From Deltaproteobacteria bacterium (GTDB taxonomy: Bacteria > Desulfobacterota > GWC2-55-46 > JADFVP01): 64,000 nucleotides of DNA. Below, one piece after another: positions 60,672 to 63,758 of this stretch. The position numbers and the translations under genes are program-made. The notes beneath the pieces were generated by a model. The model saw nothing but the letters and a program-made list of their open reading frames with translations, was not told the DNA's origin and searched no databases. The DNA is taken from contig JAJCZH010000006.1 in NCBI GenBank assembly GCA_029262515.1, forward strand, positions 1-64,000. The letters are read 5' to 3'. Position 1 is the stretch's first letter. Every line of letters starts with the position of its first letter.

Positions 60672-62084
60672 ATGACACCGAAGGAAGTTTTAAATTTTGC
60701 GAAAGAGAATAATACCAAGATGGTTGACCTCAAGTTTGTGGACTTTCTAGGTATATGGCAGCACTTTGCCGTTCCCGTCAGCGAGCTTGAAGAGGATCTT
60801 TTCGAGTCTGGCCTCGGTTTCGACGGTTCGAGCATAAGGGGATGGAAAGCTATTCATAACAGTGACATGCTCGTTATTCCCGACCCGGCTACCGCTATAA
60901 TGGATCCGTTTCCGGCCGTTCCGACATTGAGCCTGATCTGTGACGTCGTAGACCCGATCACCCGTGAGTCGTACGACAGGGATCCGAGGGCGATAGCCAA
61001 GAAGGCTGAGGCTTACCTAAAGAGCACCGGTATCGGAGACACTGCATTCTTTGGCCCGGAGCCGGAATTTTTTATATTTGACGATGTCCGTTTTTCCGAG
61101 GGTGCCGACCATAGCTATTATTCAATAGACTCCGAAGAGGGTGTCTGGAATACTGGCTCCGACGAGGGGCCGAACCTCGGGCACAAGCCTAAGCATAAGG
61201 GCGGGTACTTTCCCGTTGCCCCGGTAGACTCCCAGGACGATCTTAGAACAGAGATGACTCTGGTAATGGAGCAGATAGGTATACATGTTGAGTGTCAGCA
61301 CCACGAGGTAGCTACCGCCGGTCAGGCCGAGATAGATATGAAGTTCGATACTCTGCTTAAGATGACCGATAAGCTTATGTGGTTCAAGTACATAATCAAG
61401 AACGTTGCCCGCAAGAACGGCAAGTCGGTAACCTTTATGCCGAAACCGGTCTTTGGCGATAACGGTACGGGCATGCATACGCACCAGTCGATCTGGAAGG
61501 ACGGCAAGCCGCTCTTCGCAGGCGACGGTTACGGCGGCATGAGCGAAATGGCGATGCATTATATCGGCGGCATACTCAAACACGCACGCGCTCTCAACGC
61601 CTTCACAAACCCTTCGACCAACTCTTACAAGAGGCTTGTCCCGGGTTACGAGGCGCCGATAAATCTCGCGTACTCTTCGAGCAACCGTTCGGCCTCGATC
61701 AGAATACCGATGTACTCCTCTTCTCCAAAGGCCAAGAGAATCGAGGTCCGTTTCCCCGACCCGTCCTGTAACGGTTATCTCGCTTTTGCCGCCATGTTGA
61801 TGGCGGGCCTCGACGGTATCCAGAACAAGATAGACCCGGGCGAGCCGCTTGATAAGGACATCTACGGTCTTACACCCGAAGAGCTTAAAGACGTTCCTGC
61901 TGCCGCAGGTTCGCTCTCAGAGGCACTCGACGCGCTTGAGGCCGACCACGACTTCTTGCTAGGCGGAGATGTCTTTACAAAAGATGTTATAGAGACATGG
62001 ATAGAGTACAAGAGGCGCAACGAAGTAGCCGAGGTGGCGCTAAGGCCGACCCCGCACGAGTTTTACCTCTACTACGACTGTTGA
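60672..62084 (+). CDS. glnA: Glutamine synthetase, type I (adenylylation form)
   Basis: GlnA makes glutamine from glutamate, ammonia and ATP. The 470 residues have the ATP/Glu site [10 protein letters not shown], the Asp-rich KHKGGYFPV loop and NRSASIRIP. Tyr398 in [12 protein letters not shown] matches the adenylylation tyrosine of class I-beta enzymes, so covalent control is likely. AAGGAGGATG stands close upstream. The gap to glnB holds no clear promoter. A terminator follows. Confidence 0.97.
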
Positions 62085-62115: not shown

Positions 62116-62160
62116 AAAAAAACCCCGATCATCACAAGTACTGATGAGCGGGGTTTTTTT
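62116..62160. terminator. Bidirectional terminator after glnA
   Basis: CCCCG (62123-62127) and CGGGG (62149-62153) flank an inner CATCA/TGATG pairing. Seven A precede the stem (62116-62122) and seven T follow it (62154-62160). It can therefore end the glnA transcript on the plus strand and the small minus-strand transcript that covers 62192-62293. Confidence 0.9.
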
Positions 62161-62191
62161 GCGGTACAAACGCGTTAAGTGCTATGAGAGC

Positions 62192-62293
62192 TTATGCAAG
62201 CAGTACGAATATAGCGAACATTGCAACAGTAGCTGCAAAGCAGAAGGTGACTATAGCGCTGTCTATATTGGATTCTGTTATATGAAGATGCAT
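62192..62293 (-). CDS. 33-residue single-span membrane peptide (unannotated small ORF)
   Basis: The minus-strand frame starts at ATG (plus 62291-62293) and ends TAA (plus 62192-62194). It encodes 33 residues beginning MHLHITESNIDSAIV, with one hydrophobic helix from about residue 14 (IVTFCFAATVAMFAIFVLLA) to the end. GGAG lies 8 bases before the ATG, and a strong promoter (62421-62448) and a terminator (62116-62160) bracket it. The family is unknown. The peptide probably sits in the membrane. It is far below usual annotation cut-offs. Confidence 0.6.
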   Translation of the reverse strand: MHLHITESNIDSAIVTFCFAATVAMFAIFVLLA

Positions 62294-62420
62294 TTTATTT
62301 TCTCCGTTAAAGAAAGGTTACTGGTACTTTGTATTCCTTTACTGTGACCCCAGTATACAGGGCACGTGATTAATGGAGGATTAGAAAAAGAAGGTTCCAA
62401 TAGTTACTTTTTAGAATGTA

Positions 62421-62448
62421 AATATATGATTTTTCAGGATATTGTCAA
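62421..62448 (-). promoter_or_regulatory. Strong sigma-70-type promoter of the small minus-strand gene
   Basis: Read on the minus strand, a perfect TTGACA (plus 62443-62448), 16 bases, and TATATT (plus 62421-62426) match 6 and 5 of 6 consensus bases. The start would be near 62414, leaving a leader of about 120 bases before the small ORF. It begins just past the hldE stop (62452), so the unit is separate from hldE. Confidence 0.7.
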
Positions 62449-62451
62449 TTA

Positions 62452-62940
62452 TTATCCTTTTAGTCTTGTAATTTTTTTTATAATATTCGTTGTAGATTTT
62501 CCTTCTACAAGCTTGACTCTGGCCACAGTTCCACCATTTTTTTTAACGATATCCGCTCCCACAATTTTTTCAGCCGACCAGTCTGCGCCCTTTGCGAGTA
62601 CGTCCGGCAGTACGGTCTCTATAAGCCGTATCGGAGTAGATTCATCGAAGAGGACTACGTAATCGACGGAGGCGAGCCCGAGCAGTACCTCTGCGCGCTC
62701 TCCTTCTGGCACTATCGGACGGTTGCGCCCTTTTATTTTTTTGACTGACTTGTCGCTGTTGAGCCCGACTATCAGTACGTCTCCTAGCCTCGACGCTTTA
62801 TTGAGGTAACGTACGTGGCCAGCATGAATGATATCGAAGCAGCCGTTGGTGAAGACGGTTTTTTGCCCTCCTGTTTTTAGTATTGAAAGCTCTTTTTTCA
62901 ATGTCCTTAACGAGACCGCCTTGTCTCTCTTCTTTTTCAT
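62452..62940 (-). CDS. hldE: ADP-heptose synthase nucleotidyltransferase domain (RfaE2/HldE C-terminal type)
   Basis: This stand-alone domain transfers ADP to heptose 1-phosphate, a step of LPS inner core synthesis. The frame extends upstream, but Met at plus 62940 has GAGG upstream and gives MKKKRDKAVSLRTLKKELS and 162 residues. The cytidylyltransferase-like motif TNGCFDIIHAGHVRYL with HxGH is intact. The kinase domain of bifunctional HldE is absent and may be elsewhere. It follows comF after 38 bases. Confidence 0.9.
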   Translation of the reverse strand: MKKKRDKAVSLRTLKKELSILKTGGQKTVFTNGCFDIIHAGHVRYLNKASRLGDVLIVGLNSDKSVKKIKGRNRPIVPEGERAEVLLGLASVDYVVLFDESTPIRLIETVLPDVLAKGADWSAEKIVGADIVKKNGGTVARVKLVEGKSTTNIIKKITRLKG

Positions 62941-62978
62941 ATATATTCCCTCATTCCTTTTATCTTTTTTAAAGTATG

Positions 62979-63758
62979 TTATGTGATTTTTGCGGCACGT
63001 GCGAGAGTAATTCCGTAAGGAATAGCCCCGGCGTCCCTTAAGAGAGCAGCGCATTCGCGCATCGTAGCGCCCGTTGTGTAGACATCGTCAACCAATAATA
63101 GGCACTTTCCTTTATACATATCGGGGTTGAGTAGTTTGAACGCCCCCTTCATATTGAGTGCTCTCTCGGCCCTGTTCAATCCTACCTGAGGACCGGTATC
63201 GCGTATCCTTACAAGTCCTCTGAAGTCTAATGGAACAGACAGGGCACGAGCAGCTTCGCGCGCCAAGAGCAGCGACTGGTTGAAGCTCCGCTTGCGCAGT
63301 CTGTTTCTGTAGAGCGGTATCGGCAGTAAAGCGATGGGACTGATATTCATCTTTTTAATATCCTGACTCAAGAGCCTTCCGAGCGGGTGTGAAATCGTTG
63401 TGTCGCCGCTGTACTTTAGCCTGTGTATCGCTTCGAGCACCGTCCCTTTATAGAGGTAGAGACTTCTGGCTTCAATGAACGGGGGGGCGCAAGAGGTACA
63501 GTGTATGCAGAGATGGTCGGAGGCCGACTGAGAGACATAGGGTTCTGAGCATGTGGGGCAGCACGGCCCTGAGAGACGCTCCTGTTCGAACTCTTCATAA
63601 CATGCGGGGCAGAGTACTTCGTTGATCAGGCTTTCGTTGCAGAGCGTGCAGACTGGAGGTAATATAATAGAGAGAAGCGCAGCGGCTACAGATGTCTCTA
63701 CTCTTTTTGAGGCTTCTATACGGTCAGGTTCCGGTCTCTTTCCGATAGCTCTCGTCAT
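62979..63758 (-). CDS. comF: ComF-family phosphoribosyltransferase
   Basis: ComF proteins act in DNA uptake and in other roles in non-competent bacteria. The frame is open to 63992. Met at plus 63758 gives 259 residues, near the usual 230-250, with GAGG 12 bases upstream. A four-Cys zinc region (CTLC, CPAC, CPTC, CIHC) leads to the phosphoribosyltransferase domain with LLLVDDVYTTGATM. The first residues are uncertain. Confidence 0.85.
   Translation of the reverse strand: MTRAIGKRPEPDRIEASKRVETSVAAALLSIILPPVCTLCNESLINEVLCPACYEEFEQERLSGPCCPTCSEPYVSQSASDHLCIHCTSCAPPFIEARSLYLYKGTVLEAIHRLKYSGDTTISHPLGRLLSQDIKKMNISPIALLPIPLYRNRLRKRSFNQSLLLAREAARALSVPLDFRGLVRIRDTGPQVGLNRAERALNMKGAFKLLNPDMYKGKCLLLVDDVYTTGATMRECAALLRDAGAIPYGITLARAAKIT

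Follow-up and report, generated by a model that had tools for sequence, protein, structure and literature searches.

The window, as the whole stretch of 64,000 nucleotides that was analyzed is called here, contains on its minus strand a small gene that most probably (probability of about 0.72) encodes a 33-residue single-pass inner-membrane protein, which would be induced by a regulator of the OmpR family and would likely modulate a membrane protein. This reading builds on the computed conservation of the coding sequence and of the promoter, on the occurrence of the promoter box throughout the order, and on the link of this box to a regulator operon and to single-helix micro-ORFs. In the proposed mechanism, the response regulator of a [PepSY]-cytochrome b561-regulator-kinase operon would bind to TCTAATC-N4-ATTAATC at the −35 region and recruit RNA polymerase to TATACT. 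The resulting transcript of about 230 bases should end at the terminator common to this unit and glnA, and translation would start from GGAG/ATG. The peptide would subsequently enter the inner membrane and most likely modulate a membrane protein, candidates being a respiratory complex, the cytochrome b561, or the cognate kinase. Three parts of this mechanism are inferred from the sequence: that this very regulator binds the box, the orientation of the peptide in the membrane, and its target. A role in membrane stress, which the earlier sequence-only reading had suggested, is the direction to which the evidence points.

The window genome (G000) is a 2.5-Mb draft, which was compared with two congeners (G001 and G002) and another member of the family (G003). 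The features of the locus are as follows.

60672 to 62084, plus strand: glnA (glutamine synthetase), the convergent neighbor
62116 to 62161, both strands: bidirectional intrinsic terminator hairpin, common to glnA and the peptide unit
62192 to 62293, minus strand: 33-codon ORF MHLHITESNIDSAIVTFCFAATVAMFAIFVLLA for a single-transmembrane-helix peptide, ATG start, TAA stop
62294 to 62345, minus strand: predicted 5′ leader of about 52 bases, transcription start deduced from the −10 element
62302 to 62305, minus strand: Shine-Dalgarno (SD) sequence GGAG, 8 bases before the ATG, ACGGAG being kept in the three congeners
62352 to 62357, minus strand: −10 element TATACT, 10 bp after the box, kept in the congeners
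62368 to 62385, minus strand: direct-repeat box TCTAATC-CTCC-ATTAATC with an 11-bp period, putative response-regulator site over the −35 region
62421 to 62448, minus strand: TTGACA-N16-TATATT, the promoter named by the sequence-only reading, not conserved
62452 to 63054, minus strand: cytidylyltransferase-like gene of the rfaE2/hldE type (named by resemblance), adjoining the unit upstream on the same strand; an inner ATG may be the true start

The sequence-only reading had described a compact transcription unit with a 33-codon ORF at positions 62293 to 62192, a GGAG at 62305 to 62302, and a single-helix membrane peptide without a recognized family as its product, and all of this was borne out. 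Comparison with the congeners yielded one match each in G002 and G001, of exactly 33 codons and at the same place, with 64% and 55% amino acid identity, respectively; the ORF is a single-copy gene in each congener. Start, stop, and length are identical across the three species, the frame is intact at full length, and a fourth genome possesses a homologue. Pairwise differences between the three congeners at codon positions 1/2/3 were 9/7/19, 10/8/19, and 8/6/20, the in-frame amino acid similarity was higher than that of all 5,000 random placements of the same substitutions, and dN was below dS, with a dN/dS ratio of 0.18 in one congener pair and saturated dS values in the other pairs (dN of 0.24 to 0.25). 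Judged by this substitution pattern, the ORF is a genuine protein-coding sequence under purifying selection within the genus. Given its shortness, a frame of 33 codons could arise by chance in a single genome, behind a spurious or non-coding promoter, but it was kept here in four genomes with purifying selection and should therefore be more than chance; the identical borders in three species, the homologue in the fourth, and dN below dS leave such an explanation hardly any probability.

An RNA that is itself regulatory, with an incidental ORF, had also been considered for this unit, and four units with the same promoter and strong terminators but no membrane ORF (L113, L122, L123, and L037) would agree with it. 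On the other side, the leader is poorly conserved outside of the promoter and the SD sequence, the ORF evolves as a coding sequence, and a homologous frame with its own SD sequence exists at a different locus in G003. Since the changes are mostly at third codon positions and the frame survives elsewhere in the neighboring genus, a regulatory RNA is not favored and appears quite improbable. Rfam covariance models gave no credible match for the window unit.

The peptide begins with a polar N terminus of about 11 residues, followed by a helix up to the C-terminal end. Its 17-residue hydropathy window reached a value of 2.61, AlphaFold2 predicted a helix from residue 3 to 32 with a pLDDT of 84, and the peptide carries little net positive charge. 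No match was found in Pfam at E ≤ 10 and none in NCBIfam, PHROGs yielded only one member at 0.18, and comparison with solved structures gave chance matches only. Homologues were absent from the viral contigs searched, and a profile search in 63 genomes of the class did not find further credible relatives beyond G003.

Downstream of the ORF, the terminator hairpin at 62161 to 62116 yields about −23 kcal/mol when folded in either direction and is kept in three genomes, so that the proposed terminator common to glnA and the peptide unit is present and predicted to work both ways. The unit had been called antisense to the downstream region of glnA. It is indeed convergent with glnA and has the terminator in common with it, but there is no overlap with glnA. 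The gap between glnA and rfaE2 comprises about 365 bases at the window locus versus about 100 to 120 bases in four genomes from other parts of the order, where both genes are likewise convergent, and this shorter gap indicates that the peptide unit is an apparent addition in the window genus. A comF-like gene, again named by resemblance, comes after the rfaE2/hldE-type gene. The peptide could also be a leader peptide that attenuates translation or transcription of a downstream gene, and in other genomes similar micro-ORFs precede dnaK or the genes for a DEAD-box helicase, an ABC ATPase, or a Cache-domain sensor. In the three congeners, however, the strong terminator and the convergent glnA follow directly after the ORF, which means that no downstream gene is there to be controlled, and this function is very improbable.

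The promoter of the gene differs from the one first proposed. TTGACA-N16-TATATT is present at 62448 to 62421, but it is absent from both aligned congeners, and shuffled sequence contains a mean of 1.8 promoter-like sites per stretch of this length; this site is probably not the main promoter. In the three-congener alignment upstream of the ORF, the SD sequence and the terminator aside, a single conserved block was found, TTCTAATCYTCCRTTAAT-N9-TGTATACTG, followed by a weaker CAYAGTAA. This conserved promoter is located about 65 bases closer to the gene, and the leader shrinks accordingly from the proposed 120 bases to about 50. A direct repeat with an 11-bp period, positioned 10 bp ahead of a −10 hexamer, is the geometry of activator sites of the OmpR/PhoB family. 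The box plus −10 element occurred once in the window at ≤1 mismatch, at the peptide gene. With a matrix derived from regulator-operon sites only, the window box ranked 1 among 127,964 window positions, and it ranked 9th when the cytochrome sites were added; this test is partly circular because the regulator-operon sites of G000 to G002 had been found by a pattern from the window gene.

All six orthologous OmpR-family operons that were examined ([PepSY]-cytochrome b561-regulator-kinase) have the same box upstream, with ≤1 mismatch in G000, G001, G002, G005, and G013 and 2 mismatches in G003; the boxes in G003, G005, and G013 were found by inspecting the region upstream of the orthologues. The genes behind the box in G002 are those of an OmpR-family response regulator and a kinase; in G000 and G001, the gene for cytochrome b561 comes first and is followed by that of the regulator, the kinase gene being seen in G000. 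At ≤1 mismatch, the box was thus present at 5 of 6 orthologous operon loci and at 0 of 7 paralogous regulator loci, with a background of 1 box per about 199 kb. At least eight other genomes possess additional exact sites upstream of the orthologous regulator operon. G030 speaks against control by this regulator, as it has three exact boxes while the regulator remained unmatched at 1e−40; this genome is 93% complete and distributed over 600 contigs, so that the gene may have been missed, and the presence of the regulator was looked up in eight genomes only. The best NCBIfam match of the regulator was the CusR/CopR-type subfamily and that of the kinase was the corresponding heavy-metal sensor family, both below the cutoff; for some of the operons, PepSY was assigned from a weak Pfam match (E of 0.004) of a partial sequence. 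A metal, an oxidant, or the respiratory state would fit as the signal of the regulator. A literature search on a PepSY/cytochrome b561 two-component system, with subscription papers mostly outside its reach, found nothing relevant. Control by PhoB was rejected because the pst genes carry a different repeat in their promoters, CTGTAAC-N4-CTGTAAC (read by eye). Another OmpR-family regulator could read the box, since its consensus resembles other sites of this family, including the YTTAAK repeat of PmrA.

Across the order, the exact pattern TAATCN5TTAATN10-11TATANT gave 59 matches in 30 of 48 genomes and the reversed pattern none, and the downstream DNA was inspected for nearly all 59 sites. Judged by its box and −10 element, the window gene is one unit of this order-wide promoter class. 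Repeated targets were the regulator operon, a Cache-domain sensor (G000, G001, G029, G030, G037, G041, and G042), TlpA-like thioredoxins (two genomes), c-type cytochromes, and separate micro-ORFs of 28 to 40 codons. In the three congeners, the site is also found upstream of a secreted CxxCH cytochrome, again with 0 matches of the reversed pattern. An SD sequence, an ATG, and an ORF for 28 to 40 amino acids with a strong hydrophobic stretch followed 14 of 57 unique sites, the starts being 32 to 65 bases after the −10 element, compared to 4 of 302 other TATAAT/TATACT hexamers (P = 3e−9) and to 0.01 of 57 in a Markov control. Without the family of the window gene itself, 10 of 53 sites led to micro-ORFs (P = 2e−6). 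Two of the four control positives bear an imperfect box, the second peptide of L166 and L148 (here on the other strand), and a third is the L152 unit, recounted from another hexamer; a separate listing with more loci also contained the imperfect-box unit L090 of G003. Tandem pairs of micro-ORFs occurred in G003, G041, G037, and G034, and both tandem peptides are kept between the congeners G041 and G037 (dN of 0.10 versus dS of 0.27 and 0.11 versus 0.57). Peptides belonging to separate families of the order were not detectably similar, so that they need not act on a common molecular target.

The diverged homologue of the sister genus, in G003, was first found via the promoter alone, without use of its sequence. 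Here, the box, the −10 element, and the SD sequence precede MKKYTQKIELALVSFCFMTFIGLFVGLHMLPH (32 amino acids) at a locus away from glnA, and this peptide has the FCF motif and other positions in common with the window peptide. Its profile score was 5e−18, with the G003 sequence already being a row in that profile. Two paralogous 32-residue membrane peptides are also encoded in G003 (L139:5552-5908; L090, site at 1501): MSRQDKITAIFGIGLNVLVVSIVILVATNFFA is the second ORF in the unit of the window homologue, and the ORF of MNKTDKLTAVFGIGLNVAVAAIVIFAVTNLGI in L090 has a separate, imperfect box ahead of it.

Short hydrophobic peptides may also act like TisB, lowering the proton motive force and slowing growth under stress. 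The several unrelated helix peptides of 28 to 40 residues behind one promoter type, some in tandem and turning over between genera, would agree with membrane depolarization, as would the rapid change of these peptides from one family of the order to another, since the sequence would matter little beyond hydrophobicity. Nevertheless, purifying selection within the family, in which FCF and further positions are conserved, the small net positive charge, the single copy per congener, and the lack of a visible antisense promoter at the locus argue against a depolarizing peptide, which is unlikely. Type I toxins such as TisB and Hok have about 30 to 50 residues and a hydrophobic helix, and the window peptide is comparable in both respects; it differs in its box-driven promoter, its single copy, the purifying selection within the genus, and in that no antisense RNA was seen. 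The opposite strand was without a sigma-70-like site in a scan for this one promoter type. The designation as toxin-like found no positive support.

An inner-membrane modulator under OmpR-family control remains the preferred reading, and its closest precedents would be MgrB, PmrR, and KdpF, to which the peptide appears similar in kind but not homologous. MgrB (47 amino acids) belongs to the PhoP regulon and inhibits the kinase PhoQ (PMC8404706). Both are small single-helix inner-membrane proteins with a Cys conserved within the helix and with OmpR-family control, which is deduced in the case of the window peptide; this peptide is shorter, without a periplasmic tail or a family match, and the order contains many micro-ORFs driven by the box. 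PmrR is a membrane peptide driven by a PmrA box and inhibits LpxT (PMC8129183), and its gene likewise has its own promoter with a direct-repeat box of the OmpR-family type. The PmrA half-site YTTAAK (PMC10927774) is similar to the box described in this analysis, TCTAAT-N5-RTTAAT, whereas the regulator is nearest to the CusR/CopR-type subfamily and not to PmrA. KdpF (30 amino acids) is regulated by KdpDE and is part of KdpFABC (PMC3618439); size, single helix, and the presumed two-component control are similar, but kdpF is the first gene of a transporter operon, while the window gene stands alone.

In a wider reading, which is rather probable but less so than that of the window gene itself, one envelope/redox two-component system would have as a main output dispersed, rapidly diverging single-helix microproteins of 28 to 40 residues, including the window peptide, some in tandem and most of them driven by a separate box promoter each. 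What is conserved would then be the promoter rather than the protein sequence. Genes this small escape annotation and homology search. Here, they came to light through their promoter, which led to the G003 homologue and also to about ten unrelated micro-ORFs. This provides a search rule for uncultured bacteria: the box, 10 to 11 bp, TATANT, a leader of roughly 30 to 60 bases, a strong SD sequence, and a helix of 28 to 40 residues. Small membrane proteins are thereby linked to a cytochrome- and thioredoxin-associated two-component system, and the function of such peptides becomes directly testable.

Some further observations concern other units with the box. Box-driven micro-ORFs lie directly ahead of a DEAD-box helicase gene in two genera and of dnaK (L161, L166, and L145), which suggests a stress context. 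In G042 (L171:1586-1700), the micro-ORF ahead of the Cache sensor gene looks frame-broken relative to L168 of G026, and turnover of the box-driven peptides is visible from a comparison of these two sequences. The predicted short transcripts of L113:1532-1760, L122:514-760, L123, and L037, which end at strong terminators and contain no membrane ORF, may represent small RNAs within the same regulon; those of L113 and L122 have the sequence blocks GTGGCRTCCRGCCACTGTA and GTATCCTGCCGTAAGCGGAGGGGC in common. A multiheme cytochrome gene with the box has a long, highly conserved, and structured-looking 5′ leader in three species (L024:1533-1680, L088, and L089), with the conserved blocks CACGACGGGTCACAG...AGGCGATGARTGCC...GGTAGTATAGC...GGCATTTTTTT and a hairpin plus T run near its end; Rfam gave no credible match for this leader, which is a candidate for a riboswitch or attenuator. 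Control of nuo by the box was not counted, as the weak match there adjoins another palindrome. A conserved palindromic stretch, CTGTATACTGTATACAATATATACAG, is located just ahead of a TTGACA upstream of nuoA in G000 and G002 (L093 and L091) and is possibly another operator.
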